Shown here piece after piece: positions 6,507-50,270 of a DNA stretch of 64,000 bases. The stretch covers positions 9,181,525-9,245,524 of the forward strand of contig JAJEKV010000017.1 of assembly GCA_021234155.1 (NCBI GenBank). Direction: 5' to 3'. Positions within the stretch are counted from its first letter, which is position 1; every line of letters starts with the position of its first letter. The translations under genes and the position numbers were made by a program. Below the pieces are notes generated by a model, which worked only from the letters and a program-made list of their open reading frames with translations, did no database searches and was not told the origin of the DNA. The DNA comes from Isoetes taiwanensis (taxonomy: Eukaryota; Streptophyta; Lycopodiopsida; Isoetales; Isoetaceae).

Positions 6507-9427
6507 GAATATGTTCTTACCAAGACTACAGTTACTCTATGCACAAACACATAAAAAATACCTCGTTCATGGTAAAACCATTAATCCAATACCCACCCTG
6601 GTTTTTTACGCCAGGCCACATCAGGCACTCTCCAAACCATAAAATCATGATAATCAATATTCATATAGTCAGAAACCATATTGCCTTGTATATTCAGTAT
6701 GTTTAATTCCATCTATTGTCAAGTTGTAATCTTTAAATCTCTCAAAAAATATTTTTCACGCCATTATCGGAATTTCATAAAAAGTACCTCATTATTTTTT
6801 ATCAGAATGTTATCATATCAGAACTATTAATTTGTCCATATATCCCAAATAGTAACTTATCCATTAATTTATCCATATATCTTAAACACTTAAAACTGCA
6901 ATACAAGTCATAATGATAATCTTCCATTACTTAACTTTCCATATTTAGTCATTCTTCACTATGCAATATAAGACAGATCTCACCACATTTTGTGATGCAG
7001 TATAGAAGCCCATTAGTCTTCACGCATCCAATCCATTTGTAACTCTAACCACTGAAATTAAATCAGGGAGAAGATGTTTTGGTTACCTGCACCCAAACAA
7101 TGCCAATGTTAGCAAATCATGGTAACAAGACAAGGGGCGTCAGGTAAGCTATAAAACATCATGGCTCTTCGCCCTTCACCCTTTAAATTCAGCAAATTAG
7201 CTCATATAATAAGCAAAATATGCTATGTATTAGGGGACAAAAAGTATACTGCTGCTCACCACAGCATGGTTCTCACTAGATTCATATGCCTAAGTGGCAA
7301 ATCATGCAAAATCATGAATTCTTAAACCTCTCATTGCACAAGGTATATTGACAAGGCAGCCCACTGAGTACCAAAACCATAGTAGTTACTCTTTTAGAGC
7401 TAGACCACTAAGCGGTCTTATAACTTGCCTAAAATCCAATATACACAGATTATAGGTCAACATACCATAGCCAAAACAAATGTTCAACTTTGTTTGATCA
7501 GCATAGACCTATGTTAATCATATATCTACCCTATTTTTGTAGCCGGATGCATAAGATGAGCACCCCTAAACTAGGCAACAACCTAGCGAGGAAATTGTAT
7601 GACCTCTATCGCTGACTGCGGGGTTGTTATTCTTAAATATGCCAACTAAGTGGAGACGCAAACACTAAGCAAGCTAAGCAAACCAAGTATGCACATTAAG
7701 CAATTTCTAAGGCAGTAACATATGCAACACGGACTCTAAAACATGAGGAGCATTTTATTGCCTTAGCATTAAATAATCACGCAAGATGTAGAGGCGACTG
7801 CATTGTGCACCTAATATCTACCCAACCAAGAATGAAAGCAACAACTCATGCTAGGTAAGTACCACAATTAAATACCTCGGTCCTTTTAATCTTAAATACC
7901 TCGGTCTTTTTAACGATTAAGCAATATAATGCATATCATCAAGCTTGCCGGCCAAGCACAAAACTCGGCAACAAGTCCGCATGTATGCATTTCCAAGCAA
8001 GCAATAATAGCACAATGATCCTACACCATTTGTACCCTTTCCTTTTAAATATCAAATCCTTACACTACTTAGCCTATTCTTTTTACAATCAGATAAGCGA
8101 GAATCTTAAGAACTTTGATAGCTAAATAGCAAAACGAAATTAGATCTTGCCATGTTTTTACAAGTAGATAGCCATTCAAACCTGTTTGAGAAGGTTGAGA
8201 TATTTAGCTCCGGATACTAACTTCATGCCGATTCTATTTCGTATGGACTTCCCGCCAGGGGTATCGGTTTGGTTCTTGCACTATAAGGCAACAAGCAAAG
8301 ATCACGACCGCGCATCAAACCGTGTCGCATCACCATGTTTAGGCAAGAGGTGCCATTTTCGAAAATGCCAGTTCCAAATATGTATCACAGGTGCGAAAAG
8401 GCCAGAGATAGTCCCTACTATTAGACATGGGCATCCTTTGTATGAAAGCCAACGATTGGCATCATGCAGCATCTGTATCATATAGGCCTCTTGGGGAAGA
8501 TTACAAAAACCATCACAGAATTTAATCCCTCTATGTTTTCCAGAGTAACAGAGTAAAAACATCTAAGGCAAGCTATGAGCATGTAGCAAGCACATAGAAC
8601 TTGTATGTAGCTGTTTGCTCCGAGAAAATACATTCGATAGAGCTTTTTCCATATGCAGATGGCACTAGCCATTGTATTCTGATAGTAGAGAGCATGCCCG
8701 TTACTATAAATGGCCTCCACTATAATATTAGCCAAGAACTTATTCGTTGCTGTGTATGGCCGCCATAGCCATTTTAGGCGCCAACACAAACCTCATCCTA
8801 TAAAAAAGTGAAATTTCCCTTTTGCATGCCGTTACTTAGGCCAATAAAAGGGCATTTTCCCTTGTAAAGTCTTAATGAAATATTTTATACATATTTTCGG
8901 CTTCCAAGGACCAAATCGTAAGCATATAGCTATTGGACCCAATAAAAACTATGTAAGTTGACAAAATTAATTATGAGCACACCTTTCAAAAGCCCAAGTG
9001 CTTTTTGCACATAGCCCATCATTAAATTTCTTGTATAGCAATAAATGCTACATTATTAAGATAAAGTGACGTACCTTTTTGGAAAATGCATTTTACTACA
9101 TGCTACATTTGGCAGACATTTGGCTTTGGCCCACAAAATATGGCTTTGGCCCACCAAATACATTGTAAAAGATAGGTTTTCCTTCATTTTCTTTCCCATT
9201 ACTCATATATTACTCATATTTATCCATATTAGATACCATAACTCCATCATCAATAGAAATTTAGCATATAATAAATTCACAACTTAGGGATTTTGCAATC
9301 CATTAAGCCTCTTATTGTAATTAAATTCCATATATCTTGCTGCCTTAAACTTGTACATATATTTTTCATCTTATCATCAATATTTCATGCCTCTTTTCAA
9401 ACTTTGCAAAACTTTCAAATTTCCAAA
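6507..9427 (-). repeat. array module A1
   Basis: About 2.9 kb, nearly identical to 10105-13007 (offset about 3577). On the minus strand: a GGCGCC motif at about 8779; an exon-like end GGAGC...CAG|GT near 8187; the H1 element at 7071-7180; a donor TG|GTGAGATC near 6980; and the H2 hairpin CCTGG...CCAGG at 6597-6615. A minus-strand reading frame of about 100 codons at 8478-8789 is conserved in A2 but is extended there by an indel. I do not recognise it and would not call it a gene without RNA evidence. Confidence 0.6.
7071..7180 (+). ncRNA. H1 structured element, copy 1 (type A)
   Basis: Outer stem GATGTTTT (7073-7080) pairs with AAAACATC (7153-7160). Inner stem TTACCTG pairs with CAGGTAA. A small ATGCCAATG/CATGGTA hairpin has a GTTAGCA loop. 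The tail GGCTCTTCGCCCTTCACC follows. Which strand is the RNA is unresolved; coordinates are given on +. Confidence 0.55.
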
Positions 9428-9484
9428 TTCTTCTTCTTCTTCTTCTTCTTCTTCTTCTTCTTCTTCTTCTTCTTCTTCTTCTTC
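9428..9484 (+). repeat. (TTC)n tract 2
   Basis: On the minus strand it is (GAA)n, lying immediately downstream of the promoter-like module at 9485-10095. Confidence 0.95.
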
Positions 9485-10095
9485 CTCCTCTTCCCCGTCC
9501 CTCCCTCAGGATGTAGGACTCCTCTGTTTATAAGGGAAGTAGGACCGCCCCTATAAAAAGAGGGGTCCTACTTTCTTACACCAGAAGAAAATAGATACAT
9601 CATTCTATATCATTGCGTGAAAATAATATATTCACATGCAGAATATTGGGTACTTTTTGACATAATGTCTAAGCCATGGCACATTGGGCCAAGGTAAGTT
9701 TTCATTTGGGTATTTGGATAAGGCTCAGTGGGCCAATATCCAGCTCATATCATATGAAGGTCTTATGGCACTATGGACTACAACCTCGTATCAGCACATT
9801 ATGAGCCAAAATGCTCCATGTACAAATGCATGACCACATGTATATTTTCAACTAGCACAATATATTGCCCTAATAATGACACCATGCCACTATGGCATAG
9901 TGGGTCAGCATCTGAAATCCCTAACATGCATGTTATGTGGCATTGTGGATTACAAAACCCAACAAGTCATGACTATTCTCATATCAAAACTTGGCAGATC
10001 CTACTCTATTATAAAAAAGCAGGTAACTTTCAATCTAACCTGGTTTGCAGAAGAGATGCGTTTGCCAGATACCTCCAGCAAGTGGATGTCACAAT
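9485..10095 (-). promoter_or_regulatory. promoter-like module P1
   Basis: The most diverged of eight copies. On minus, a TATAAAC box (plus 9525-9533) and a long inverted repeat, AAGTAGGAC...GTCCTACTT, lie just upstream of the (GAA)n tract. Further upstream are several TGGCAC..TGGGCC-like repeats. It ends at a short TTTCTTCTTC at 10095-10104, where the next H2 region begins. Confidence 0.45.
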
Positions 10096-10104
10096 TTCTT
10101 CTTC

Positions 10105-13007
10105 GAATATGTTCTTACCAAGACTACAGTTACTCTATGCACAAACACATAAAAAATACCTCGTTCATGGTAAAACCATTAATCCAATACCCACCCTGGT
10201 TTTTTACGCCAGGCCACATCAGGCACTCTCCAAACCATAAAATCATGATAATCAATATTCATATAGTCAGAAACCATATTGCCTTCCATCTATTGTCAAG
10301 TTGTAATCTTTAAATCTCTCAAAAAATATTTTTCACGCCATTATCGGAATTTCATAAAAAGTACCTCATTATTTTTTATCAGAATGTTATCATATCAGAA
10401 CTATTAATTTGTCCATATATCCCAAATAGTAACTTATCCATTAATTTATCCATACATCTTAAACACTTAAAACTGCAATACAAGTCATAATGATAATCTT
10501 CCATTACTTAACTTTCCATATTTAGTCATTCTTCACTATGCAATATAAGACAGATCTCACCACATTTTGTGATGCAGTATAGAAGCCCATTAGTCTTCAC
10601 GCATCCAATCCATTTGTAACTCTAACCACTGAAATTAAATCAGGGAGAAGATGTTTTGGTTACCTGCACCCAAACAATGCCAATGTTAGCAAATCATGGT
10701 AACAAGACAAGGGGCATCAGGTAAGCTATAAAACATCATGGCTCTTCGCCCTTCACCCTTTAAATTCAGCAAATTAGCTCATATAATAAGCAAAATATGC
10801 TATGTATTAGGGGACACAAAGTATACTGCTGCTCACCACAGCACACCGTGGACCATTTCCAAATGGTTCCCACTAGATTCATATGCCTAAGTGGCAAATC
10901 ATGCAAAATCATGAATTCTTAAACCTCTCATTGCACAAGGTATATTGACAAGGCAGCCCACTGAGTACCAAAACCATAGTAGTTACTCTTTTAGAGCTAG
11001 ACCACTAAGCGGTCTTATAACTTGCCTAAAATCCAATATACACAGATTATAGGTCAACATACCATAGCCAAAACAAATGTTCAACCTGTTTGATCAGCAT
11101 AGACCTATGTTAATCATATATCTACCCTATTTTTGTAGCCAGATGCATAAGATGAGCACCCCTAAACTAGGCAACAACCTAGCAGGAAATTGTATGACCT
11201 CTATCAGCAGCCTGCAGGGTTGTTATTCTTAAATATGCCAACTAAGTGGAGACGCAGCACTAAGCAAGCTAAGCAAACCAAGTATGCACATTAAGCAATT
11301 CTACAGCAGTAACATATGCAACACGGACTCTAAAACATGAGGAGCATTTTATTGCCTTAGCATTAAATAATCTGCAAGATGTAGAGGCAGCCTGCACAGG
11401 CACCTAATATCTACCCAACCAGCAATGAAAGCAACAACTCATGCTAGGTAAGTACCACAATTAAATACCTCAGTCCTTTTAATCTTAAATACCTCAGTCT
11501 TTTTTAACGATTAAGCAATATAATGCATATCATCAAGCTTGCTTCAGCAAGCACAAAAACTCTGGCAACAAGTCTGCATGTATGCATTTCCAAGCAAGCA
11601 ATAATAGCACAATGATCCTACACCACTGTACCCTTTCCTTTTAAATATCAAATCCTTACACTACTTAGCCTATTCTTTTTACAATCAGCATAAGCAGAAT
11701 CTTAAGAACTTTGATAGCTAAATAGCAAAACGAAATTAGATCTTGCCATGTTTTTACAAGTAGATAGCCATTCAAACCTGTTTGAGAAGGCTGAGATATT
11801 TAGCTCCAGATACTAACTTCATGCCGATTCTATTTCGTATGGACTTCCTGCCAGGGTATCAGTTTGGTTCTTGCACTATAAGGCAACAAGCAGCATCACG
11901 ACTGCATCAAACCAGGTCGCATCACCATTTTTAGGCAAGAGGTGCCATTTTCGAAAATGCCAGATCCAAATATGTATCACAGGTGCGAAAAGGCCAGAGA
12001 TAGTCCCTGCTATTAGACATGGGCATCCTTTGTATGAAAGCCAACGATTGGCATCATGCAACATCTGTATCATATAGGCCTCTTGGTGGAAGATTACAAA
12101 AACCATCACAGAATTTAATCCCTCTATGTTTTCCAAAGTAACAGAGTAAAAACGTCTAAGGCAAGCTATGAGCATGTAGCAAGCACATAGAACTTGTATG
12201 TAGCTGTTTGCTCCGAGAAAATACATTCGATAGAGCTTTATCCATATGCAGATGGCACTAGCCATTGTATTCTGATAGTAGAGAGCATGCCCGTTACTAT
12301 AAATGGCCTCCACTATAATATTAGCCAAGAACTTATTCGTTGCTGTGTATGGCCGCCATAGCCATTTTAGGCGCCAACACAAACCTCATCCTATAAAAAA
12401 GTGAAATTTCCTTTTGCATGCCGTTACTTAGGCCAATAAAAGGGCATTTTCCCTTGTAAAGTCTCAATGAAATATTTTATACATATTTTCGGCTTCCAAG
12501 GACCAAATCGTAAGCATATAGCTATTGGACCCAATAAAAACTATGTAAGTTGACAAAATTATTCAAAAGCCTAAGTGCTTTTTGCACATAGCCCATCATT
12601 AAATTTCTTGTATAGCAATAAATGCTACATTATTAAGATAAAGTGACGTATCTTTTTGGAAAATGCATTTTACTACATGCTACATTTGGCAGACATTTGG
12701 CTTTGGCCCACAAAATATGGCTTTGGCCCACCAAATACATTGTAAAAGATAGGTTTTCCTTCATTTTCTTTCCCATTACTCATATATTACTCATATTTAT
12801 CCATATTAGATACCATAACTCCATCATCAATAGAAATTTAGCATATAATAAATTCACAACTTAGGGATTTTGCAATCCATTAAGCCTCTTATTGTAATTA
12901 AATTCCATATATCTTGCTGCCTTAAACTTGTACATATATTTTTCATCTTATCAGCAATATTTCATGCCTCTTTTCAAACTTTGCAAAACTTTCAAATTTC
13001 CAAATTT
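10105..13007 (-). repeat. array module A2
   Basis: Near-duplicate of A1. H2 hairpin at 10195-10213, H1 at 10648-10757, exon-like end near 11785, GGCGCC near 12370. Differences from A1 cluster at CAG/CTG and CG sites, for example near 11203 (CTATCAGCAGCC against CTATCGCTGAC), which suggests base-calling error rather than divergence. Confidence 0.6.
10648..10757 (+). ncRNA. H1 structured element, copy 2 (type A)
   Basis: Same outer stem as copy 1 (10650-10657 with 10730-10737). Only a GGGGCG to GGGGCA change inside. Confidence 0.55.
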
Positions 13008-13051
13008 TTCTTCTTCTTCTTCTTCTTCTTCTTCTTCTTCTTCTTCTTCTT

Positions 13052-13081
<30 letters not shown>
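13008..13081 (+). repeat. (TTC)n tract 3
   Basis: Joins module A2 directly to the H2 region of module C1 (TTATTTACATTTAC). The promoter module present at 9485 is absent here. Confidence 0.95.
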
Positions 13082-13082
<1 letters not shown>

Positions 13083-13666
13083 TTTACATTTACATCAAAA
13101 CTTCACATTATTATGTTTTTAAAAAACAAAAATAACATTCCATCTATGATGTAAACAATCAAAAAATATCCATCCTAGTTATTCACTAGGCCACAGTTTC
13201 GACCCCTTATTATATTGGCAGAGAACCATGATCCCATTTATTATATCTTCAACTTAGTACCATATCTTAAAAGTAGAGAGTATAGGAATTTATTCTTATA
13301 TGAGATCAAGTAATAATGTAAGCATAAAATGAGACCAGAATGTAAGAAACATTTATTGATTGTTGAACTTTCATTTTTTACAGCAGATGTATTATACACG
13401 GTTCTGATTTTTCAGAAAACATTGAATAAGATCGTTCATGCATCCAAACAAGCATCATATGATTATTTTCAGTAGTATATTTTGAATCCCTGTTGTAACA
13501 ATCCGTATAATTTTACTTATTCATGTCACTATAGGAATGATCTCACCATATCTTCGCAATAATCACAGGAAACAATTGACCGCAGTCATCTTTCGATCTT
13601 CATATACAGCTCCTCCATTAGAGCAGCAAGTGGACCACAACATTAATAAGAAAGAACACCAAGGAG

Positions 13667-13780
13667 AAGATATCTGGGTTACCTGCATCCAACCAGTATA
13701 CTAGTTAGCAATAATCTTGGTAACAGTATAAGGGATGACAGGTAAGCAGTTAGATATCTTGGCTCTTCGCCCTTCACCTT
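13667..13780 (+). ncRNA. H1 structured element, copy 3 (type C)
   Basis: Outer stem AAGATATCT (13667-13675) pairs with AGATATCTT (13752-13760), a different sequence from type A but fully complementary. Next to the invariant TTACCTG/CAGGTAA, CATCC pairs with GGATG. The inner hairpin is ACTA...TGGT around GTTAGCA. Confidence 0.6.
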
Positions 13781-15022: not shown

Positions 15023-15160
15023 TTCTTCTTCTTCTTCTTCTTCTTCTTCTTCTTCTTCTTCTTCTTCTTCTTCTTCTTCTTCTTCTTCTTCTTCTTCTTC
15101 TTCTTCTTCTTCTTCTTCTTCTTCTTCTTCTTCTTCTTCTTCTTCTTCTTCTTCTTCTTC
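15023..15160 (+). repeat. (TTC)n tract 4
   Basis: Pure tract of about 46 repeats, one of the longest. Flanked on the left by module C1 and on the right directly by the H2 region of D1. Confidence 0.95.
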
Positions 15161-17586
15161 TATGATGTTCTCACAAAGACTATATACAATTAACGTTCAA
15201 AAACAATTAAAAGACTTCGTTCAGAGTGAGTACATATTTCCCAATATCTACCCTGGGTTTTTAGGCCAGGCCACATCAGGTACTCCTACACCCATGTACA
15301 TTTATTTTTATGGAACTTAAAATATAAACTTCCATCAATATATTCAAGAATACTTAGCCTTAAATCATAATGTAATGTATAACCATGCCAATATCTCATG
15401 TTTCTATTCTATAAATCTTGAATGTAAATGTAAGTTTGTTCTAGTGCTCATCTTTATATCTCAATAATTTAATCCTTTATATATCAGCTGTAAACATAAA
15501 TTTCTAGTTACCATCAATAAGGTCATTTCAAAAAATCTTTCCATTAAGTTTTATTTCTCAGGAAAAACAATATATCCGTCCAATGACTATTTATGTCATA
15601 AATTTCAGAATTTGTGCATCACATAGAGCAAACCAAGTTCACTGGTAGCTCACATGAATGCCAGTGTAAAGCATTCAATAATTAATTTGTAACCCATTTG
15701 TTCATTTATCGCCAAAAGGGAAGATCTCACCAAATAGATGTACAACCATAGATTGGGCCGTTATCTTCACATGGTCCCTCGATTGTAGCACATAGCAACA
15801 TGCAACTGAAAATAACACCAGGAGAGATTGTTCTGGTTACCTGCACCCAAACAGACCAATATTAGCATGAAACTGGTAATAAGGAAAGGGGCATCAGGTA
15901 AGCTATAGAACAATCTGGCTCTTCGCCCTTCACCTATAATTTTCAGTTAATAGATGTTTCTAGAAAAATATCTAGAGTTTACAGACTTAGAGGCCAAATA
16001 TTAAAGATACAAGTTAAATCATAATGGGTCATTTCCTTAAGCCCATAACCTGTATCACGCCATAAACCATTAATACATAAATAAATAGGGACTAGTTTTT
16101 CTGGATATGGTATTTTACAGGCCAGCATGGATGTCTCTATAAGCTGCCTTACCATTCAGCATCTAACCCATGATTATGATCACCATAGCAACAGAGAAAA
16201 TAAACCTGTGGTATTACCAAAGCTCCATTTGGCAGTACAAATGTCCATTGGCAGTACAAACGTCCATTCTTAATAGCATCTTAAATGTAGACCACATGTA
16301 AACAGATGCTAGGCCTACAACCAGGTCACCCATAGCCATGCAAAGGCAAAGGAGAACTTACCCATATCACCTTTTAACATGGGCTAGAAACTAGAAAATA
16401 GAATCAAGAACTATTTTGACCGTTAAATAAATGGTTAAACCTGAAAAGAAGAGCTACGTTATAGCTCCTTGTATGCCATTTCGTTTCCAAATCCTTCTTT
16501 TTGATCTTCTTGAAGCAGGCTCAGAGCATTCGAGCTGCAGTTACAGTATCAGGCCAACAATGGCATCATGAATTAGATCTAGGCCAATAATGGCATCATG
16601 AATTAGATCTGATGAACAGAAAATGTACAAAAATAATAGCGCTAAGAGCAGAACAATATATGCCTTCAGCAAAATCATGAGGCATCGAAGTGCCATTCCA
16701 AGTTTGTGCATGTCGTTCAAGGCAAAGCCCGGCGTACTGTATTACCATCACAAGCATAAGCTTCTCTGCATTTAGTAGCAGCAAAAGAATGATTCCAAAG
16801 TACCAAAAGTGCTTGAATCTGCTACCCAACTCTTGAACCGGATATGTCTTTCCTGGTTTTAGCATCAAGACATCCAGGTCCGGCCATTTCTAAGTTAGAG
16901 CATGAAGCTCTTATTAGCGCCTCCATAGCAGCGGTTCTTCACAGAAATCCGTTTTTGCAAACTTAACCTATTTTCTTATGAGAAATATCCAAGGAAACAT
17001 TTCGTATGACATTTTTTGAAGATCTATTTTTCATATGAAAATGGGAACATTATCCCTTCCATTAATCAAATCGGCTCCATAGCCACTTTTCCAGCCCATA
17101 TTAAAGCCCATAATGATGATTTTCAGCTTAGATGTATGCCATCGGCTTTATCATAGCTTTCCAAAAGCAAACATGTGTACAAAATGCCAAAGGGTCACTT
17201 CTCTTGTAAAAATAAGAAAGTTTTCTTGGGGTCATAATGACATATCCTAGGAAATGACGTCCCTTTATTATATCTCTTTAGGAGCCAATATAGAAAAGGT
17301 CCCTATCCACCTACCATACATAATTCTTTAGCATAATAAATGCCAAACCAAGCATTTAAAGACCATAGAATTAAAGTTTTCATTTTCCAACTTTTTATGA
17401 TTGATCATTACTACATATGGCCAAAATTAGGCCATCATTCACCTTCCTTTTAATACGTTCCAACATCCTTGTATTCCTATGCCATTCTAGGCTCATGTTA
17501 AAGCATTAAAATACATAAATCAAATGCCATTAGGTGACCTATTCCATCAAGGAATGCCCTTTCCGGGCTATAATTTTTTGAAGAAT
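15161..17586 (-). repeat. array module D1
   Basis: The most repeated module type, found six times. H2 hairpin at 15252-15270, H1 at 15825-15934, exon-like end GGAGC...CAG|GTTTAACC near 16441. A minus-strand frame at 16596-16868 has a hydrophobic run, YFGIILLLLLNAEKL. That frame is interrupted differently in the sister copies, so it is probably not coding. A duplicated 29-bp motif (AATGGCATCATGAATTAGATCT) occurs at 16559-16610. Confidence 0.65.
15825..15934 (+). ncRNA. H1 structured element, copy 4 (type D)
   Basis: Outer stem AGATTGTTCT (15825-15834) pairs with AGAACAATCT (15907-15916), 10 bp. The inner hairpin is ACCA...TGGT around ATTAGCA. Confidence 0.6.
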
Positions 17587-18273: not shown

Positions 18274-18283
18274 TTTCTTCTTT

Positions 18284-23574: not shown

Positions 23575-24193
23575 CCCACATCCCTCCCTCAGGACGTAGG
23601 ACGCCTCTTTTTATAAGGGAAGTAGGATCCCCTCATAAAAAGAGGGGTCCTACTTCCTTACACCGAAGAAAATAGAATAGATTAGGTATCTTGTACCATA
23701 TTCCAAGGCCGTGGCACAATGGACCAGGTCTGGTTTTACATTTGAGTAGTACTAGAATATGGCACATTGGGCCAATATCCAATTCTTAACCTGTATAGGT
23801 CATATGGCACTATGGACCATAAACCCTACCTAGTTAAGATGATCTTTAAATCATAATTTCAGCTCAAAGAGCAAAATAGATAACATTCAATCTGACCTGT
23901 TATGGCGAAGTGATACCTTGGCTATATACCTCTTCATTAACTTCAGAATTAACCGTGAATAAAAGTTGCTGGTATTAAAGCATAATGGGATTGGACAGCC
24001 CTATCAGAAGCATTTTCCACAGCCCCATATTCCAAGTCAACTAGTTGTATCAGCCAACAACCACACTGCTGTAATAAATCATAGTAGCAGTTAGTAATGC
24101 CAAAATCAAATACAAGATCAGCATTATTTTATGATTTCATGGTTTCAGAAACGATGTGTTTGCTGGATACCTCCAACAAATAGATGTCACAGT
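23575..24193 (-). promoter_or_regulatory. promoter-like module P4
   Basis: Near-identical to P3, with telo-box core on plus at about 23821 and TATAAAAA on minus next to the tract. Confidence 0.5.
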
Positions 24194-30500: not shown

Positions 30501-32927
30501 TGATGATGTTCTCACAAAGACTATATACAATTAACGTTCAAAAACAATTAAAAGACTTGATTCGAGTGAGTACATATTTCCCAATATCTACCCTAGGTTT
30601 TTAGGCCAGGCCACATCAGGTACTCCTACACCCATGTACATTTATTTTTATGGAACTTAAAATATAAACTTCCATCAATATATTCAAGAATACTTAGCCT
30701 TAAATCATAATGTAATGTATAACCATGCCAATATCTCATGTTTCTATTCTATAAATCTTGAATGTAAATGTAAGTTTGTTCTAGTGCTCATCTTTATATC
30801 TCAATAATTTAATCCTTTATATATCATTTTGTAAACATAAATTTCTAGTTACCATCAATAAGGTCATTTCAAAAAATCTTTCCATTAAGTTTTATTTCTC
30901 AAGAAAAACAATATATCCGTCCAATGACTATTTATGTCATAAATTTCAGAATTTGTGCATCACATAGAGCAAACCAAGTTCACTGGTAGCTCACATGAAT
31001 GCCAGTGTAAAGCATTCAATAATTAATTTGTAACCCATTTGTTCATTTATCGCCAAAAGGGAAGATCTCACCAAATAGATGTACAACCATAGATTGGGCG
31101 TTATCTTCACATGGTCCCTCGATTGTAGCACATAGCAACATGCTGAAAATAACACCAGGAGAGATTGTTCTGGTTACCTACACCCAAACAGACCAATATT
31201 AGCATGAAACTGGTAATAAGGAAAGGGGCATCAGGTAAGCTATAGAACAATCTGGCTCTTCGCCCTTCACCTATAATTTTCAGTTAATAGATGTTTCTAG
31301 AAAAATATCTAGAGTTTACAGACTTAGAGGCCAAATATTAAAGATACAAGTTAAATCATAATGGGTCATTTCCTTAAGCCCATAACCTGTATCACGCCAT
31401 AAACCATTAATACATAAATAAATAGGGACTAGTTTTCCTGGATATGGTATTTTACAGGCCAGCATGGATGTCTCTATAAGCTGCCTTACCATTCAGCATC
31501 TAACCCATGATTATGATCACCATAGCAACAGAGAAAATAAAACCTGTGGTATTACCAAAGCTCCATTTGGCAGTACAAATGTCCATTGGCAGTACAAACG
31601 TCCATTCTTAATAGCATCTTAAATGTAGACCACATGTAAACAGATGCTAGGCCTACAACCAGGTCACCCATAGCCATGCAAAGGCAAAGGAGAACTTACC
31701 CATATCACCTTTTAACATGGGCTAGAAACTAGAAAATAGAATCAAGAACTATTTTGACCGTTAAATAAATGGTTAAACCTGAAAAGAAGAGCTACGTTAT
31801 AGCTCCTTGTATGCCATTTCGTTTCCAAATCCTTCTTTTTGATCTTCTTGAAGCGGTGCTCGAGCATTCGAAATGCTGCGATTCTGATATCGAGGCCAAC
31901 AATGGCATCATGAATTAGATCTAGGCCAATAATGGCATCATGAATTAGATCGATGAGCGAGAAAATGTACAAAAATAATAGCGCTAAGAGCAGAACAATA
32001 TATGCCTTCAGCAAAATCATGAGGCATCGAAGTGCCATTCCAAGTTTGTGCATGTCGTTCAAGGCAAAGCCTGCGTACCTGTATTACCATCACAAGCATA
32101 AGCTTCTCTGCATTTAGTAGCAGCAAAAGAATGATTCCAAAGTACCAAAAGTGCTTGAATCTGCTACCCAACTCTTGAACCGGATATGTCTTTCCTGGTT
32201 TTAGCATCAAGACATCCAGGTCCGGCCATTTCTAAGTTAGAGCATGAAGCTCTTATTAGCGCCTCCATAGCAGCGGTTCTTCACAGAAATCCGTTTTTGC
32301 AAACTTAACCTATTTTCTTATGAGAAATATCCAAGGAAACATTTCGTATGACATTTTTTGAAGATCTATTTTTCATATGAAAATGGGAACATTATCCCTT
32401 CCATTAATCAAATCGGCTCCATAGCCACTTTTCCAGCCCATATTAAAGCCCATAATGATGATTTTCAGCTTAGATGTATGCCATCGGCTTTATCATAGCT
32501 TTCCAAAAGCAAACATGTGTACAAAATGCCAAAGGGTCACTTCTCTTGTAAAAATAAGAAAGTTTTCTTGGGGTCATAATGACATATCCTAGGAAATGAC
32601 GTCCCTTTATTATATCTCTTTAGGAGCCAATATAGAAAAGGTCCCTATCCACCTACCATACATAATTCTTTAGCATAATAAATGCCAAACCAAGCATTTA
32701 AAGACCATAGAATTAAAGTTTTCATTTTCCAACTTTTTATGATTGATCATTACTACATATGGCCAAAATTAGGCCATCATTCACCTTCCTTTTAATACGT
32801 TCCAACATCCTTGTATTCCTATGCCATTCTAGGCTCATGTTAAAGCATTAAAATACATAAATCAAATGCCATTAGGTGACCTATTCCATCAAGGAATGCC
32901 CTTTCCGGGCTATAATTTTTTGAAGAA
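30501..32927 (-). repeat. array module D5
   Basis: H2 about 30585-30605, H1 31162-31271, exon-like end near 31780. The GGCATCATGAATTAGATCT duplication is at about 31901-31951. Confidence 0.65.
31162..31271 (+). ncRNA. H1 structured element, copy 8 (type D)
   Basis: Stem 31162-31171 with 31244-31253. The only copy in which the inner stem is weakened (TTACCTA instead of TTACCTG). Confidence 0.5.
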
Positions 32928-36395: not shown

Positions 36396-36405
36396 GTTTC
36401 TTCTT

Positions 36406-38850: not shown

Positions 38851-38870
38851 TTCTTCTTCTTCTTCTTCTT

Positions 38871-38900
<30 letters not shown>
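38851..38900 (+). repeat. (TTC)n tract 12
   Basis: Followed by TTATTATTCACATTTACATC, the H2 region of module F. No promoter module between. Confidence 0.95.
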
Positions 38901-38901
<1 letters not shown>

Positions 38902-41292
38902 TTATTCACATTTACATCTAGACTTACACTATAAATGCATAAATACAAACTTATAGCTCCATTCAAGATGTAAATTTTTCCCATAAATATCCATCAAGGG
39001 TAAAACCCAAGCCACAGCTGAAAGGTAACCTTTACATGGTTGGAAAAATGAATATGTCTAGCAAAATTATAAAGTTAGTATAGCATTTGCCTTTGAACGT
39101 GATCCAAAAAATCAGACCATCATTTTAGAACACAGTTTTTAGAATTTCAGAAATACGAGTTTTACAAGTTAAGCATGTGGCCATATAATTTCCAAATAAA
39201 TGCATCTTATATCATTATCTCATGTAATATCATTAAAATTTCAGCATATTGTTTTTCAGCTTATAGTACATCAGAATTCTAGATATATAAACCTTCATAA
39301 TAAACACTCTTCAAATTTCAGATTATTGCTAAATACTAAAGTCTTGATCCTTTTGCATTATTTCATGAAAGAATTTCAGTCCAACTAGTCTTCTTCCAAC
39401 AATAATAGCAGTGTTATCATGTCTTTTGCTGACCATATTTTTTGTACACATCAAAAATAGAAGATCTCACCCGATTAAGTCGTGGATCTGAATTTGTTGC
39501 GCATCTTTTTCAAATTATATCTTCCATTGTAGTTGCCTTCATGCTGCAACTATGTAACTTTGAAAGAACAGGAGATAGAGTCTCGGTTACCTGCACCCAA
39601 ACAATGCCAATGTTAGCAAATCATGGTAACAAGACAAGGGGCGTCAGGTAAGCTGTGAGACACTATGGCTCTTCGCCCTTCACCCATTCATATACAAAGT
39701 AGAATGGTGTTATATAAGCAAATTGAGCTCTAATCTTTAGTGCAAAAACGCAGATGTATTAAATACCATTATATTCAAGTAAATGGCTGCCTATCTCAGC
39801 CATATGTCTATGTTCAAAGAGTCAAAATTCTGTAGGCATATGTCTACGATACCATAAAGCAACCAAAATCAAAGTGCATGCTTCAGTCTACTAGTATATG
39901 CACACATATCCAGCATATATACTCACATTTAACATGCATTTTGTCTGCTTACACCAGCCATACTTCAATGCATATCTGTCTAAAAACATCAGGTAAATGA
40001 AACCCTCAGATTTTGTGCATGACAGCAAGTATGTTCCATTACTTTATTCTTATCCAGCCATATCTCTATGCCAGTTATTATCTATCATGCACGAATATAT
40101 TCTCAATCATAACTAGAATGCAATTTCATGAAGCACTCAATTAAATCTCAAATCTCATTGTGTACATTTACCAGCTCGGATATAAACTGGATGTATATTT
40201 ACACGCTAAGATAAAAACCTGATATTTCAACATCTACTTCTAAGAATCGCTTCATCTATATTTTGGGCATGCCTTAGCATGTCGCTGGATCATAAATATA
40301 GATTAGAAAGCTAAAAAACATTGAAAAAACCTGGATATATGCGCTCCTAGCATCCTGCCCTGATCACGTCAAGTATTGGGAGGAAAGTCTTCAACCTTTA
40401 GCTTCAGAAATATGCTCCATCCATAACAAAGTGAGCAACAGAGTAAGCATAAAAGGATCATTCCTTATGTAAACGGCAGTGCAGCCAGCTCTGTGGAAGA
40501 TAAAATATCAAGTATTCAGCACTGGATATCCAGTATCATGCTCAAATGGGCAGATTCGGCGCTCTACTAGCTGGATTAGGCGCCAAGCTTCTGTTAAAGA
40601 CCTCTTCCGGGCACATCCTCTCATGAAATACAGACCTTTGGTAGGTCCTTTTCGATTTCTGGAGCCACCGATATTTAATGAGCCACAACAATTTGCTATA
40701 AAGATGGTCGCTTGTAGGCCATAGATATTAGTTACCAAATGCATGTAAAAATCATGCTATCCATAAAGACTTGGCTTTATAGTAGCCAACTCACAAATAT
40801 CTCACGCGTTTTCTTCATAAAGGAGTGGCCCCACCAAAATATCAAGTATATATGTTATTTTTTAAGCCATCGTACTTCCACATATATCAATTATGTTTAC
40901 ATCCATGCACCACAAGTCAACAAAATAACTTTCGCTAACACTTAAAATTTTCCTTTCTACCTTGGAGATTCAAAAGCCAAATAAAATAGATCGTATGAAC
41001 ATTATATTCCTTAATTTGTTAGCAAATTTTCTAGTTTATGCCATGTAACTTCACAAACCACTTTTTCATAATCTTTATATCTAGAAAGCATGTAACTCAA
41101 TAAATGTTCCATGATTGGCTATTGTAGATTAGAAAGCATGATTCGAAATGGCTATTGTTATTCAAATTGCAAATACTAATGTTATAGACATACCTTATCG
41201 GCCCAAATTGCCTTGATCATTATTGCATGAGCCGCATCATGTGTACAACTTCATAGTTTCCTTGTTGCCTTTGAAAATACGAAGAAAAATAT
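38901..41292 (-). repeat. array module F
   Basis: A single, diverged module. H2-like segment at 38975-39015 (ATATCCATCAAGGG), H1 at 39575-39684, exon-like end AGGAGCG...CCAG|GTTTTT near 40332, GGCGCC at about 40577. On minus near 40475 an ATG opens a very short frame starting MILLCLLCCSLCYG, signal-peptide-like but soon stopped. An unrelated 78-codon minus frame lies at 40508-40744. Neither is recognised. Confidence 0.55.
39575..39684 (+). ncRNA. H1 structured element, copy 10 (type F)
   Basis: Outer stem ATAG.GTCTC (39575-39584) pairs with GAGAC.CTAT (39657-39666) with one A.A mismatch. The sequence is unlike types A, C and D, but complementarity is retained. Confidence 0.6.
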
Positions 41293-41405
41293 TCTTCTTC
41301 TTCTTCTTCTTCTTCTTCTTCTTCTTCTTCTTCTTCTTCTTCTTCTTCTTCTTCTTCTTCTTCTTCTTCTTCTTCTTCTTCTTCTTCTTCTTCTTCTTCT
41401 TCTTC
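41293..41405 (+). repeat. (TTC)n tract 13
   Basis: About 37 repeats, joining F to the H2 region of G without a promoter module. Confidence 0.95.
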
Positions 41406-42073
41406 GTACATGTTCTTACCTAGACTACAGTCACATTTAAAGTACAATTACATTAAAAGAACCTTGTTCAAGGTAAGATCATAATTCCAAATATCCACCC
41501 TGGTTTTTAGGCCAGGCCACATCAGGCACTCTCCAAACCATTAGCCCATATAACTTCCTGGATATAAAAAATAATTCCATAAAGTATAAATCTCAGATTT
41601 TAAAGTGTACACTTGTAAATCTCAAATTTTGAAGTATCAAGTATAAAATATACAATGTAAAGTATTCAATATAAATTCAAGCTTATTTCTTTCTCTATCC
41701 AGTTTTTCCACTTTGTACAACCTCCTTTTCATGCATAAACCATCATATATAATCATTCTTTCCAACTATAATACTTCAACAATTTTTAACATCATTGTGT
41801 CTAACCTCCAATATAATATAAAGTAGTTTATTTCCATGTTACAAGACCCGTCTCATATCTATTTTACTGTCATAATTCAGATTTCAATGTTTGTTTCCAT
41901 ATATACTTCCTCAATCAAAATTAATCCATGAAATTGTGACATTTGGAAGGATCTCACCAAACTTTGAGCAAAATCAGCATTGTACATCTTCAAATGAAGT
42001 AGAAATTCAGCATTCTCCTTCGTCATTTGTAGCTTATTTGTGCTACATCGAACCTTGACAAAAAGAGTAGGAG

Positions 42074-42183
42074 AAGATGTCTTGGTTACCTGCACCCAAA
42101 CAGACCAATATTAGCATGAAAATGGTAATAAGGAAAGGGGCGTCAGGTAAGCTATAAGACATCTTGGCTCATCGCCCTTCACC
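42074..42183 (+). ncRNA. H1 structured element, copy 11 (type G)
   Basis: Outer stem AAGATGTCTT (42074-42083) pairs with AAGACATCTT (42156-42165), 10 bp, a fifth distinct but complementary stem. The tail reads GGCTCATCGCCC instead of GGCTCTTCGCCC. Confidence 0.6.
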
Positions 42184-43690: not shown

Positions 43691-45177
43691 CTAATCATAA
43701 TCTCTTTCCTTCATCTTAGATACCTTCATCTTCATAAATATTTCTAAATTTTCACTTACGAACCTGAATGTGTTCGCTCCTGATATATGCAGCATATGTT
43801 TGATACTTGTTTTATCATCTCGCCAAGTTCGAATCCATACTTCTTATGCAGACGAATCCATGTATAAGAACACCTACCACTGCTTTACAATCAATAGGTA
43901 TCCGTTTAAAGCTTAAGAATATTTCTTAACAAAAAGCATTTATAAATCAACCCTATAAATTGCAAGAGTCCACATCCAGACCTGTATGGTCTCAGTTGGT
44001 ATACCTTTTGGCCATGAACTGTAGCTGGGAACCCATCGTAACAGATAGCAGCATCATAGCATAAGCATTTGTGTGCATCAGAGGAGAAAACCCTGATGAG
44101 ATCGGCTACTGAATATGCAAGATCATTTTTTCTTCACCGGCATTTTTTCTTACATCTTCCTATGGCGCCATAACTGGAAGGATCGGCAGCCATAGTTCAA
44201 AACGAATTTCTCATGGCATATAGACGTTTTGCTTTATTGCCGAAAATCTCATTCTGTTACCTTCTATGGAATAATAAGGTCAAATGGCATTTATGCTTTC
44301 TAAGACCCATTACCAGAATTTTCCTTTAAGGATTTTACCATAAGTGTGGCCACGATGCTTTGCCTCCAAAACTTTACCTTTATTAAATTGTGTCGCTTAT
44401 CTCAAATATCCACGAAACTTTCACCGGCCATAATTTATTAGGCACACTTCCATGCTATATTTTAATGTCTGCAACTTTTAACATCCGTCCAATATAGACT
44501 AGGTTAAAGTATTTCCACGAAATTAGATCCAAAAAGCTATTTTAGCCTCAAAAGCCACAAAATTCTACGTACACAATATTCAAGTGGTTATTTGATCATA
44601 TCCAATAAGAATATTTGGGAAAGCTAAGATATATACCCATTGTGCCTCCTTTATCTTATTCTATTCTGTTGACCAATTCTCAAAGGGCCAAAACACTTTT
44701 CCTCCATTGGAACACGTCCAACATATAGTTTATAAACTCAAGCAACTTAATGTATATTATTTTGTACTTTGAGCACAGCTAGGCCAAATCATCTTTTCAA
44801 TTATTCCCAATTTTTCTTTTCTTTCCAAAATCTTCATACTTTCTCAAATTTTCTAGCTCATTGTCCTTAAGGACAATCATTATCAAGTCATAAATGCCCT
44901 TACATCTCTATGTCTATTATGCCTTCACACTTAAATATTAGTATGTACTTCTAAATATCCATCAATACCAACATAGTTCTTATACATGCATAGAACGTAA
45001 GAATTGAACATCAAGTAATCTTTAAGATATTCCCAAACTTCCAACTTGCAATGTCTTCATTGACAACATATTTCACATCCATTTACATAGAGAATTTTTT
45101 CTATTCACCTTATTTTCTTATTTTTCGTACTTTATATTCTTCTTCTTCACAATTTTCGCATCTTCTCAAAATTTATT

Positions 45178-45298
45178 TCTTCTTCTTCTTCTTCTTCTTC
45201 TTCTTCTTCTTCTTCTTCTTCTTCTTCTTCTTCTTCTTCTTCTTCTTCTTCTTCTTCTTCTTCTTCTTCTTCTTCTTCTTCTTCTTCTTCTTCTTCTT
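45178..45298 (+). repeat. (TTC)n tract 14
   Basis: About 40 repeats. On its right is the X-type 5' module (GGCTGGTCTCGTG) rather than a P module. Confidence 0.95.
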
Positions 45299-45685
45299 GG
45301 CTGGTCTCGTGTTCGTTCCATTCGTTATCTTCAGAATCGATCTGCTCCTCGGAAGAATCGGCATCAAGGAATCGAAATTGGAGGATGAAAGCTCCTCCTC
45401 GAAAGCTTCGGAAAGATCTTGAGCTTTTAAGAGGAGGACTTTCAATTTCGAACTCTCGGCTTCGGGGCTTTTCGGGCTCGGGAGACGAGGCCTTGTCGGG
45501 CTCTGCAAAGGAAAAATTTGGCCAAGATCCTATGCCATAACCGGCAAGGACATGTGCCAAAGGAATGGAAGCGGCGCCCCGCTTGGAAGGGGAAGGGGGG
45601 AGGCAGAGGGGAGGGGAGCGGCGGCCGACATTGTTTGAAGGAATTGGACGATGCTTCTCCCTCACGACCATAGCCTATAAAGGCT
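45299..45685 (-). promoter_or_regulatory. X-type 5' module (copy 1), possible promoter and first exon
   Basis: Shared with 51657-52066. On minus, a TTTATAGGC box at about 45676 is followed within 20-60 bases by Pro/Ser/Arg-rich reading frames, then an acidic/Ser-rich segment running into the (GAA)n tract. In one frame the text reads DADSSEEQIDSEDNEWNE and continues into poly-Glu; in another it continues into poly-Lys. Which frame, if any, is translated is unresolved, because the two copies differ by indels. Noticeably GC-richer than its surroundings. Confidence 0.4.
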
Positions 45686-46959
45686 GGCGTGAAATTAATT
45701 TCTCAGAGGCTACGATTTTAGGATTTCATTACCATTAGTATCTTAATCGTAATAATTTAGTAGGATACTGAATAATTACCTCGAAATGACCATAATTTTA
45801 TTTTCTAAAAACAAAAAAAAAAATATCTATCCCCGAAATGGCCATTCTTTTTTGGACACCAATCATATTATCTTGGCTTGGCACTTGTTTAGTAATTGTA
45901 GTTATAATTAGCTAGTGTAAATTGATTGTTGACTTCAAAATTGTTGACTTACGCTTCACCAAACATGTTGGTCAATGAAAGTCAAACATGTAACAAAAGG
46001 GGGTGATTCACACTTGTTGACTTGAAAATTGTTGTCTTTAACAACGGTGCCTTAACATAATGCATAGAATAGCATAGGTCAAAATTGTTGACTTACGCTT
46101 TACCAAATGCTTGGGGTTTGACTTGGAAATTGTTGACTTACACAATTTATGCCTTAACATAATGCATAGAATATCATAGGTCAAAATTGTTATGCTTTAC
46201 CAAATGCTTGGGGGTGATTCACACCTGTTGATTCATTTGGCATTTGTTGATTTGGCAATTGTTGATTTGGTAATATGTGCAACATTTAATGCATGTGGGA
46301 TATTTGAGGCCATTACTAAAAAAAAGGGTGGACGAGGATTACATCTAGAAAGGTCATGACACTCTGGCCTGTAACTGAAGATTACAAGCCAGAGAGCCAT
46401 TGTTGGGATTATCATGTTATATGATTATTCCTTAAGGGAAGTTGATAGCACTTTGCTCATACCTAAGGGTTATCATGTATTCAGGTTGAGGGACAAGCAG
46501 AAAGGCAGTTTGATCTTCATGAGTAACATAGTTGAAGAATGAAGAATAGAGTTTGCATTAAGTCCAAAGATTACACATGAGGTGAGTTAATTATTAAGCT
46601 ATATTTGTTTCAATGGTTCAATGGTTCGAGGGCATAGAATGATTCAAATGCATGTGGGATATTGATATGCAAAAACCCTGTTGGCCTCGAAAACGTGAGA
46701 ATGCCTGTGGGATATTTTGTTGGGCAGAAAAGAGAAAATAGCAAGACCAAGAATGTCGCCGTGCCGAGCTGGGTACACCGCCTGATCATGCTACAGTAAT
46801 ATAATCATATCCATTTGAACAATGCTGACTATCCATTTGAGCCCACTATAACGGGAACTGCATACCAGAGAATTATAAAGTTCTTTAAACGTTTGTGGTG
46901 TTCATAAACACCAAATTACAATAAAAAAGGGATCTAATATTAAAAAAACATACAACAGT
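45686..46959. repeat. spacer with TTGAC-rich tandem repeats (copy 1)
   Basis: From about 45900 to 46230, tandem units of roughly 90-100 bases repeat the text AATTGTTGACTTAC, CTTTACCAAATGCTTGGGG and CATAATGCATAGAATA. They contain many TTGAC/GTCAA cores (W-box-like). The rest, up to the end of gene X1, shows no gene signal. Duplicated at 52070-53459 with one extra repeat unit there. Confidence 0.6.
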
Positions 46960-49472
46960 TTAGGACAAGTCCATGGTCTTTAGTACCTCCAACACTTTTG
47001 TGCTTTTCTTGTCATACTGATTTCGAAAATGCACAGACCTCTGTACATAAGCAATTACGTTCACTTCTGTTATTAGCTTCTCCAAGTAAGGTACCATAGT
47101 CTTCAACAGATAATCACCGTCATTTATGTCAGGCACGAAGGACCATGATGTGATGCAGAAATCTGCATTATTCTTAAAATTCACGTACCTGTAAGGATCA
47201 ATCAGCAAAGTTGTCCTCATGCTAAATTCTGGACATTTCTCATAAACTTTTGTGAGTTTTTTGATGTAGCAAGAAGTTCCTCCTTTCATTTTCAAAGGTT
47301 GCACCATCCATTTGAACAGAAACTTATCCACTAATGACTGAGGCATGAAAGACCTCGGGCGACTAATCACCGAAAGTGATTGGAAGACCATATACCAACA
47401 AAGCAAAATGTTAGGTGGCTAATTGCATGAACTTGACCTTTACGGCCCGGACAAAGAAGAACCTCTTTTCTTGATGGAAGAAGTTGGACACCTTCCACCA
47501 CATCAGTCTTCGCTTTAACCTTTTTGAAAACCTTGTACAGGAAATCCTCTGGCTCAATAACCAAAAGCTTCTTGCCAACAACACTAGCACGTGCAATGAC
47601 AACTATTAGAGAAATTATATCAAGATAACAAAGTAAAGAAACACACTAGAATCACCTTAGTTTCTTAGTTATTGATTTGGATGGAGCTCGTTTCTTTGGA
47701 GGAAACCTGCTTGGAATTATTTTTAGAAGAAGATTCTCCAACTGATGCCAAATCAGTTTCTTCCTCTGTGATTGTCTTCTCCACAATATCAGCACGTTTG
47801 TCCAAATTGGAAACATAATCATCTACATTCTTCAACACTGCTTCACATTCTTCATCTATTACTTGCACAGCATTGTCTTCAATTCTGTTAGAAATGTCAA
47901 CTATAGAGTTTGAAATATCCAAACTTGAGCCTGCATCATTCAAATTATCAAACTAAATAAGTACTTATAGAAGAAAAATCCAAAGTAGTTATACTTCACA
48001 AGAATAACTTACTTTTCAGTCTTTTACAACTATTACTTTGTTCAGCATTGTCTCTCTTCAAGTTTGGGCTTGTGGAAGATAATCCGTAAGGTTTATGATG
48101 TTACAGCTAGAATCAATGCTGTTCCTAGTCACACGGGGAGGCAAATATGATTCACTACCAACCCCTCCCTTCTGCGCAACCCAGGTGGCAGAGGTAGCAG
48201 TAATACTTTCATCTCTTGGTTTTTTACTGTATTTTTTCCTTAAAAACTCCTCATCTTTTAACATCACTTCACATACCTCAACCAATCTTGTATTTCCAAA
48301 GGTCTGTATTATGTCACAGTTCGGGCTAACAGTCAACTTGCTAGCAATCTTAATCATTGTCTCACGAACATGCATATAGGCTAGCTGTGCCAAAATAGGT
48401 TTCTTGAGATTTTGTCTGATAAAATGCAAGAAGTATGCCATCCTACCAGCAGCTGAATACTTGGGATAAACAATCTCCAGGTGATTAAATAAGTACCAAA
48501 TAGCCTGATCAAACCATCCTTACATGTATCAGGTGGGCAGCTACATTTAATATAAGGACTCCAGCTCCTCCAAATCTTATGTAGGTATGAATATCCTCTT
48601 TCAGTATTCAAATACCCCATATGGGCTTTGACGCATAAAGTGACACCACTATTCTGCCTACATTTCTTATCAAAGACCTCGGTTTGACATGGAAAGTTTA
48701 TTTCAGCTTCATCAATAATCTTAACCATGTTATTTGTCTCATTTATAACATTAGCCATCTCATCTTCTTTAATATCGGCCATCATCATCCAAACTTTAGT
48801 ACTAATAGGTGCTAATGTTCCAAAATTAAGGCTTCTCCATAATCCTTGCTGAAATTCCTCCCCCAACCATTCTATAGCCATTTCAGAAATAATAGGGAAT
48901 CTTAGGCAGTTCCCTAATGTAAGTCTGACCAGATTATCCATATTGCTGTTCTTCAGATTAGCCTCCTTTTCTTTTTTCATGAGATCCATATCAACTTTAG
49001 GGAAATATTTAACAAAACCCTGCGTCTCAGTCTCATCAATACCATAATCTATTTGTTTACCTTTTTCCGTTTCAAACGTGTTATCAGTCAACCCATGTAC
49101 TTTCTCAAGGTATGTGACAGTAGCTTTGCACTCTATTGACAACATGTCATCCAAGTCTGTCCGATCAGCAAGTATCTCCTGAGTTTTTGAGAATAGCTGT
49201 TGTATAATTCCTCTGCATTCTTCTAATATCATTCCTTTCTGATCGAGCATAAGAAATGTCTCGAACCAAGTACTAAAACCAAGATGAATGATAGGTGAGA
49301 ATTGATCAGGAAGCAGTCTTCTATTCAAATCCAGCATAAGAGCATGTATCTCTTCATTAGGTATTAACCCAATAATCGCTTGGACAGCTTTGTTAGGTGG
49401 ATCACCCACACCACCATAGCCCATATCGAATAGATGCATCATCCACTCATTTTTCTGCAAGGTAACATCCAA
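46960..49472 (-). CDS. gene X1: large multi-exon protein of unknown family
   Basis: The biggest coding segment in the array. The main part (about 49450 down to 48500) encodes a 330-residue stretch with QKNEWMMHLFDMGYGGVGD near its start and KCSCPPDTCK near its end. It continues, after a one-base frameshift near 48502, as WFDQAIWYLFNHLEIVYPK...LAYMHVRETM (to about 48070). Further minus-strand exons follow at about 47960-47660 (acidic, then a Lys/Arg-rich end resembling a nuclear localisation signal), 47587-47415 (KKLLVIEPEDFLYKVFKKVK) and 47410-46960, each bounded by AG/GT signals. The upstream end at CTTGCAG may be an acceptor, so a 5' exon may be missing. I recognise no domain. The duplicated 3' half in X2 shows that this was once a unit. 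Probably a cargo gene of the giant element. Confidence 0.5.
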
Positions 49473-50158
49473 TAGGATCAGAACCTTAAATCATACATAT
49501 AATATATTATATAAGGGGTAAACTGTGTTTGTTAGATAGCTCTAACAAATGGAAGTCCCAATTTCTTCTTATTTACATTTACATCAAAACTTCACATTAT
49601 TTTGTTAAAAACAAAAATAACATTCCATCTAAGATGTAAACAAACATAAAATATCCATCCTAGTTATTCACTAGGCCACAGCTTATATCCCATAATATAT
49701 TATATTAGTTTGGAACCACAATCCCAAACATTTTATCTTCTCATATGAAGCTTCTTTTACATGTTTAGAGTCTCAAAATCTGTTATTTTAGGTGATGAAG
49801 TGATGTTATGTAGACATTTAAAGATAACAGTATTAAAGTCCTTTATATTAAAAGTCAAATATTCATCTTTTACATCTGTTACAGTATTCAGATTTTGATT
49901 TATAAGGAAATAAGGAGTGTATCAGTTCAAGATTCAACCCAGTAACATATAATAATCATGATAGTCAATTATTGAACCTTTGTTATATCATAACATATAT
50001 TCTGCTTAATCTTGTCATAATAGGAATGATCTCACCATGTCTTCACAGCATTAATCATATGAAATATTTGACCGCATTGATCTTTCAGTCTTCATCAATA
50101 GCTCCACCAATAGAGCAGCATATGGACCACAACAATAAATTGAAAGAACTCCAAGGAG

Positions 50159-50270
50159 AAGATATCTAGGTTACCTGCATCCAACCAGTATACTAGTTAG
50201 CAATAAACTTGGTAACAGTATAAGGGATGACAGGTAAGCAGTTAGATATCTTGGCTCTTCGCCCTTCACC
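50159..50270 (+). ncRNA. H1 structured element, copy 12 (type C)
   Basis: Stem AAGATATCT (50159-50167) with AGATATCTT (50244-50252), as in copy 3. Conserved although the modules differ at many places outside it. Confidence 0.6.

Follow-up and report, generated by a model that had tools for sequence, protein, structure and literature searches.

A covarying three-way-junction RNA domain in retroelement repeats of Isoetes taiwanensis and its overlap with splice-like signals

The stretch of 64,000 nucleotides (nt) of Isoetes taiwanensis analysed here (contig JAJEKV010000017.1 of assembly GCA_021234155.1, positions 9,181,525 to 9,245,524; hereafter the window) contains twelve copies of a structured RNA domain. 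All copies are in a single orientation, and neighbouring copies are ~2-8 kb apart. They are as follows, each with its outer-stem type and its score against a covariance model.

7066..7180, minus strand: structured RNA domain, type A, 131.4 bits
10643..10757, minus strand: structured RNA domain, type A, 131.2 bits
13662..13778, minus strand: structured RNA domain, type C, 122.8 bits
15820..15934, minus strand: structured RNA domain, type B, 130.9 bits
21733..21847, minus strand: structured RNA domain, type B, 130.9 bits
24862..24976, minus strand: structured RNA domain, type B, 130.9 bits
28000..28114, minus strand: structured RNA domain, type B, 130.9 bits
31157..31271, minus strand: structured RNA domain, type B with one substitution, 126.5 bits
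37066..37180, minus strand: structured RNA domain, type B, 130.9 bits
39570..39684, minus strand: structured RNA domain, type D, 130 bits
42069..42183, minus strand: structured RNA domain, type E, 132.4 bits
50154..50270, minus strand: structured RNA domain, type C, 124.1 bits

A preliminary description of this DNA, made from the sequence alone, had reported twelve copies with shared motifs, and all were found where it placed them. GGCTCTTCGCCC is exact in 11 of the 12 copies and has one mismatch in the other, while shuffled sequences average 0.05. CAGGTAA (exact) and TTAGCA are present in 12/12 copies each. TTACCTG is exact in 11/12, the copy at 31157 having TTACCTA. The covariance model, built from the twelve copies, recovered the same twelve, and the next match had E = 0.6. 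The five outer-stem types that had been described on the plus strand are real, but the six type B copies are nearly identical (five identical and one single-base variant), and only 8 distinct sequences are found among the twelve. Outer-stem and inner-loop types are combined differently in two loci (L020 and L030) and in the window copy at 39570-39684, which suggests module exchange between copies.

The host genome (1,658,258,908 bases in 1,110 contigs) was searched with a core pattern composed of CAGGTAAGC, 13 free bases and GGCTCTTCGCCC, with up to two mismatches allowed. There were 1,455 matches (748 + 707), and none with the reversed control. Among the 1,455, 100 places were listed, all without mismatch. 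The exact core pattern had no match in IMG/VR. A set of 57 distinct rows was derived from 68 matches in 54 sources; the 54 were taken from 67, and those omitted were same-place or near-duplicate loci. About five of the 57 rows (L014, L026, L032, L051 and the second copy in L042) have a broken helix P2, described below, and look dead by eye; they are still counted. A sense-strand alignment of 28 rows (A7) was hand-picked for diversity.

On the minus strand, the domain is a three-way junction of ~115 nt with an outer helix, a small hairpin with a GAAGA or GAAA loop, and a long irregular hairpin. Both borders of the domain are marked by the outer helix, GGUGA/UCUCC, which includes a U.U. This helix corrects the boundary of the element in the preliminary description by adding a further helix with two covarying pairs: pair 2 is U-A in 2/28 rows, and pair 4 is A-U in 3/28 and unpaired in 3/28. 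GGAG/CTTC had been considered as the closing helix and was replaced by this one. The small hairpin comes after the outer helix, with a GAAGA loop, or with GAAA and an extra closing pair in L082 and L083. P1 has ten pairs, all ten with two-sided changes, and P3 has five, four of them with two-sided changes. P2 (UUACCUG/CAGGUAA) is nearly invariant. P3 is followed by P4 and then by a terminal hairpin in which UUACC stands opposite GCUAA. All 28 rows have C.C mismatches at columns 35/105 and 62/75. A two-state switch by a second UUACC/GGUAA pairing was rejected, being at least 8.3 kcal/mol worse in 27/27 sequences (L026, which is without the motif, was dropped).

Compensatory changes support a selected RNA fold, in agreement with the preliminary description. 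Among the 8 distinct window sequences, 12 of the 38 pairs show two-sided changes, no pair shows a one-sided change, and 12 of the 304 cells are broken or gapped. In the 28 diverse rows, two-sided changes are found in 22 of the 39 pairs. Pairing is seen in 95.0% of the cells of these rows, while slid partners reach 33-42%. The proportion of paired cells is 92.4% in the 57 rows. Covariation was tested in an R-scape-like manner with a phylogeny-preserving null, in which substitutions were re-dealt along the branches of a FastTree tree with Fitch ancestors. The lack of covarying pairs among independent copies had been named as a result that would speak against the fold, but such pairs are present. 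With 28 rows and 60 replicates, 8 pairs showed E < 0.05; 12 reached E <= 0.15, and each of the 12 was inside the structure. With 57 rows and 30 replicates, 5 pairs showed E = 0 and the next 0.1. Two counts from the 57 rows do not favour the fold: neither the number of pairs with two-sided changes (reached by 194/500 shuffles) nor the number of further pair types (reached by 477/500) is above shuffled alignments.

The RNA had been read from the plus strand in the preliminary description, and the wobble pairs place it on the minus strand instead. In the plus-strand reading of the 57 rows, A.C is found in 89 cells and G.U in 14 (the pair of columns 3 and 126 omitted). In the 28 sense-strand rows, the non-Watson-Crick cells are 55 G.U and 9 A.C. 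The mismatches on the plus strand are mostly A.C, which correspond to G.U pairs on the minus strand, and thus the minus strand is considered to be the functional one. The same asymmetry bears on the explanation that the matching arms were produced by inverted-repeat conversion at the DNA level, without RNA function. The lack of one-sided intermediates among the 8 window sequences and the shuffling of inner and outer modules between copies are consistent with conversion. However, the wobble-pair asymmetry is unexpected for DNA hairpins and strongly disfavours it, and two-sided changes are seen in four separate helices including the outer one. Conversion is extremely improbable as an explanation.

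The preliminary description had recognized no known RNA family in the element, and Rfam gave the same picture. There was no match at the gathering threshold, and one unit searched at E <= 5 showed only weak plus-strand overlaps with small nucleolar RNAs (E 1.9 and 2.5). A long hairpin in many copies is what a stand-alone small RNA or a microRNA precursor would provide, but these Rfam results, the three-way junction and the position of the domain beside reverse transcriptase (RT) genes in retroelement repeats make such an origin very unlikely.

The domain belongs to a retroelement whose coding capacity comprises a small exon-1-like protein, ORF1 and an RT. The domain lies in direct repeats on either side of the RT and is not the free-standing RNA element that the preliminary description had implied. 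At the locus L040, two open reading frames (ORFs) lie on the same strand 3' of the domain, one with 516 codons, the other with RT motifs and at least 605 codons. In the contiguous L040 region, the exon-1-like ORF is followed by the domain, ORF1 and a 718-codon RT. A 3.7-kb stretch is present twice at 97%; it runs from the 3' end of the RT through the flank beyond it and a (TA)n tract into ~3 kb that contain exon 1 and the domain. ORF1 and the RT sit between two domain copies, and the right-hand repeat ends in (TA)n ~300 nt past the domain. Six regions upstream of other long RT ORFs were chosen from 72 scored RTs of 4,278 candidates. They represent five families, as L083 and L086 are 92% alike. 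All six contain one domain, on the strand of the RT, between exon 1 and ORF1.

The association was also observed genome-wide. The variant small-hairpin pattern has 49 matches in the genome, and none with the reversed control. Of these, 28 have one of the 72 scored RTs within 9 kb, against a chance fraction of 0.0008; 19 different RTs account for them, and element and RT are on the same strand in 28/28 pairs. Thirteen pairs of elements are 6.6-8.4 kb apart on the same strand. For a second RT type (from L044), 3,292 candidates yielded 127 scored hits, and 32 of these are on contigs represented among the 100 listed core-pattern matches. Among the matches listed, 14 of these 32 loci have an element within 10 kb, against 0.04 loci expected, and 25/25 element-RT pairs are in the same sense. 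The strand-consistent association in both tests indicates that the domain belongs to retroelements, often on both sides of the RT. A single domain copy, at 4487-4605 of L074, was seen opposite to the RT strand, beyond the RT 3' end. It resembles the inverted repeat copies reported for Penelope elements (PMC3846280).

The exon-1 proteins (L040 and L081-L086) start with M(A/SK)GRPEGxxNKGxTR, which is AT-hook-like by eye, followed by two SAP-like stretches. One copy of this protein had no match in Pfam. The AT-hook-like start might be related to insertion beside AT-rich or (TA)n tracts.

The following features were observed in the window units that carry the domain.

48106..49445, minus strand: ORF1-like coding remnant in two frames, downstream of the domain at 50154, 27.6% and 30.1% to L040 ORF1, E 7e-47
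6498..6640, minus strand: second conserved island on the 3' side of the unit, with a CCTGG/CCAGG hairpin by eye and GCCACA, then (GAA)n
10096-10238, 15152-15285 and 41397-41541: islands related to that at 6498..6640

Three RT queries revealed no RT remnant in the window at E <= 0.1 (best E 0.15). Window units of different type have in common only the domain, the second island near a TTC tract, and the 9-base GATCTCACC. Such short shared islands suggest a repeated unit with few constrained parts. A protein-coding reading of the islands was dropped, as the units are without a long shared open frame. In five of the 12 units, the second island is followed by (TTC)n of at least 6 copies, at a distance of 560-672 nt from the domain (6462-6506, 13008-13079, 15023-15160, 38851-38898 and 41292-41405). 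This tract could be an insertion target or a tail. Directly after the TTC tract, at 23591-23658 and at comparable positions of other type B units, there is an inverted repeat of 29 nt with 90% complementarity. It is accompanied by TCCCACATC, similar to an upstream sequence element, and by a TATA-like sequence, and is possibly a small inserted element.

The repeats and ORFs resemble endonuclease-less Penelope-like elements. The tentative placement of the RT in the telomerase/Penelope clade comes from the architecture and from the motifs FKxHKxxYRWI, DITKCYENIP, GIPMG and RYMDD, which look Penelope-like; database and structure searches lent it no decisive support. With the RT, Pfam gave RVT_1 only below the cut-off, and NCBIfam gave only sub-threshold group II RT matches, for two of three proteins. 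No RT relative was found in PDB by sequence or by profile, and AlphaFold2 on 7 RTs gave an unusable model (predicted local distance difference test score 38.7). No Pfam match to a GIY-YIG endonuclease was seen in the scanned RT, ORF1 and exon-1 proteins, and thus only the endonuclease-less subclass was considered. The direct terminal repeats (pseudo-long terminal repeats, pLTR) that Penelope-like elements owe to a tandem or partial-tandem arrangement are seen here in the 3.7-kb repeats of L040 and in the 13 same-strand pairs. Two-ORF Penelope-like elements without endonuclease are known (PMC6431247), and Selaginella and conifers are listed among the hosts of endonuclease-less ones (PMC9033089).

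Sequences similar to splicing signals are located in the domain and downstream of it. Below, a caret marks the putative junction.

7108..7113, minus strand: branch-point-like GCTAAC of the first copy (GCTAAY in 28/28 diverse copies)
10685, 13704, 15861, 21774, 24903, 28041, 31198, 37107, 39612, 42110 and 50196, minus strand: GCTAAC or GCTAAT at the same place in the other 11 copies
7082..7089, minus strand: acceptor-like CAG^GTAAC of the first copy, at the same place in 12/12 (TAG at 31157), predicted to be buried in P2/P3
6976..6984, minus strand: donor-like GGTGAGATC downstream of the first copy
10553, 13539, 15723, 21636, 24765, 27903, 31064, 36969, 39463, 41950 and 50028, minus strand: donor-like GGTGAGATC of the other copies

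The base after GCTAA is C or T in 28/28 rows, including 9 rows in which it is unpaired. In the 57 rows it is C in 33 and T in 23, and one row is without GCTAA. YAG^GUAAC is present in 27 of the 28 diverse copies, L026 being the exception. GGTGAGATC is found downstream of 12/12 window copies, ~95-165 nt beyond the acceptor-like site. It occurs 13 times in the window against 0.25 expected, the thirteenth (6223) on the other strand. Exon 1 ends with AATCAG^GT in 7/7 loci; the search pattern had required that NQ precede a V or L. In 6/7 loci, TAG^G stands directly before the open frame of ORF1, and L082 showed no such site. From this arrangement, the domain, whose helices contain the branch-point-like GCUAAY and the acceptor-like YAG^GUAAC, very probably sits in a presumed intron separating exon 1 from ORF1.

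The resemblance of the invariant strands to splicing signals also bears on a self-cleaving ribozyme, which would process tandem transcripts as hammerheads may in other Penelope-like terminal repeats. The location in terminal repeats is the same as that of published hammerheads (PMC11167929 and PMC6431247), and the compact junction fold with a GNRA-like loop would suit a ribozyme. On the other hand, few unpaired bases are invariant by eye. No hammerhead or other Rfam ribozyme was detected at E <= 1 in nine stretches from RT loci, nor any in the window at the gathering threshold. A ribozyme is unlikely.

To the following reading we give about an even chance: the domain is an intronic RNA clamp that sets the proportion of spliced and unspliced RNA, a splicing role read from the sequence signals. 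The fold would clamp the acceptor-like YAG^GUAAC shut. In the closed state, the intron would be retained, and the whole RNA would be available for reverse transcription. In the open state, the acceptor would be used, probably for an exon of the poison or recursive kind. In this way, the relative amounts of spliced message and unspliced template would depend on the domain, possibly under the control of an element-encoded protein. The clamp reading would also account for the absence of covariation in P2 and at the foot of the terminal hairpin: the splicing signal would hold one strand constant, and the opposite strand would have to remain complementary.

Two tests are consistent with the clamp. 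The mean unpaired probability of YAG is 0.001 in 27 rows, against 0.333 with the rest of the sequence shuffled, and 1.7% of controls reach it; the burial is partly circular, as the structure was derived from the same sequences. In 37 families with unrelated flanks, themselves picked for the branch-like and YAG^GTAAC motifs, donor sites were given a weighted score. At +80..180, the best score was at least 6 in 28/37 families; the two intervals that follow gave 9 and 6, and shuffles averaged 9.9 (maximum 17).

This circularity and this choice of families weigh against the clamp, and so do the following points. At a donor cut-off of at least 7, the count is 12/37, against 4 and 1, and is not above the best shuffle (mean 5.6, maximum 13). 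Nine of the 37 families have donor scores below 6, and TTG^GTGAGA is the best site in five of these nine. The branch-like site has a mean unpaired probability of 0.263 against 0.51, reached by 18% of controls. The length of the putative exon varies and is not kept as a multiple of three. Its inclusion would bring an in-frame stop in 7/7 loci, which is likely by chance. P2 and hairpin 1 are without two-sided changes and rest on invariance. The right-hand L040 copy has a damaged P2 and scores 50.3 bits. The minus strand is more stable in two of four copies folded both ways, and folding energies thus leave the strand undecided. All copies come from one genome. Finally, the ORF-poor repeat copies retain all the splice-like signals, which fits recognition by the RT at least equally well.

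Recognition by the RT is possible, though less likely than the clamp. The domain would be a cis signal by which the RT/ORF1 proteins of the element bind its unspliced RNA and set the internal start of reverse transcription, and the splice-like motifs would be incidental or secondary. Coding and ORF-poor repeats both retain the domain, and it stands before the end microsatellite, at ~300 nt in the right-hand L040 copy and 560-672 nt in the five window units with a long TTC tract. In the anole Penelope element, a protein-binding motif within the first 172 nt of the ORF adjoins the repeat-ORF junction, reverse transcription initiates internally, and the hammerhead is dispensable in vitro (PMC11167929). 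However, such a cis signal does not predict GCUAAY with Y kept even when unpaired, YAG, or a downstream donor-like site. The ORF-poor units may be recent copies of coding elements, so that retention of the domain in them settles neither reading. The clamp and the RT-binding roles could be compatible.

It is tentatively proposed that the domain represents a new class of RNA: a three-way-junction switch of retroelements that hides a branch point and a recursive-type acceptor, is opened or closed by the element's own protein, decides between message and template, and explains the retention of introns when sense RNA is copied. Penelope-type elements keep introns, and in 2013 the question whether antisense RNA or unspliced sense RNA serves as their template had no answer (PMC3846280). 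If the clamp is real, burial of the acceptor in the presumed first intron would be a direct mechanism for an unspliced sense template in Penelope-like elements. The domain would in addition define a family of structured RNAs that matches no Rfam model and whose core pattern has 1,455 matches in one plant genome, and it would be the second type of conserved fold, besides the hammerhead, in Penelope-like repeats. A literature search found no such domain named; it covered few subscription papers, so an earlier description is possible.

Other repeated sequences were observed in the window. The segments 45259-48083 and 51617-54577 show 92-94% mutual identity in the same orientation and are probably another mobile element. 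Near-identical gag fragments of Ty3-type retrotransposons are present at 61465-61836 and 63540-63911, ~2.1 kb apart; Pfam was run on the first only.

Compared with known systems, the Isoetes elements share several characteristics with Athena/Coprina-type elements: a two-ORF RT element without detected GIY-YIG, direct repeats, tandem copies and a presumed genomic intron. They differ in that the Isoetes copies adjoin (TA)n or (GAA)n tracts and in that no hammerhead was found. The domain and the hammerhead ribozymes of Penelope-like terminal repeats are both conserved RNA folds and occur in similar repeats. In contrast to the hammerheads, the domain has another fold, no Rfam match and an overlap with splice-like signals.

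Recursive splice sites with recursive-splicing exons (RS-exons) are known from long animal introns, where they are not known to be part of covarying RNA domains. Their sequence signature, a YAG^GURAG-like junction with a downstream donor, is seen in the Isoetes domain, where YAG is directly followed by GUAAC and a donor-like site stands ~95-165 nt downstream. The splice-like motifs in Isoetes differ in being embedded in a covarying RNA domain. A structured splice site is also present in the poison exon of plant TFIIIA, which contains a 5S mimic. The Isoetes domain differs from it in being retroelement-borne and in having no match in Rfam, 5S rRNA included, but both are structured RNAs tied to a possible non-coding, frame-breaking exon.

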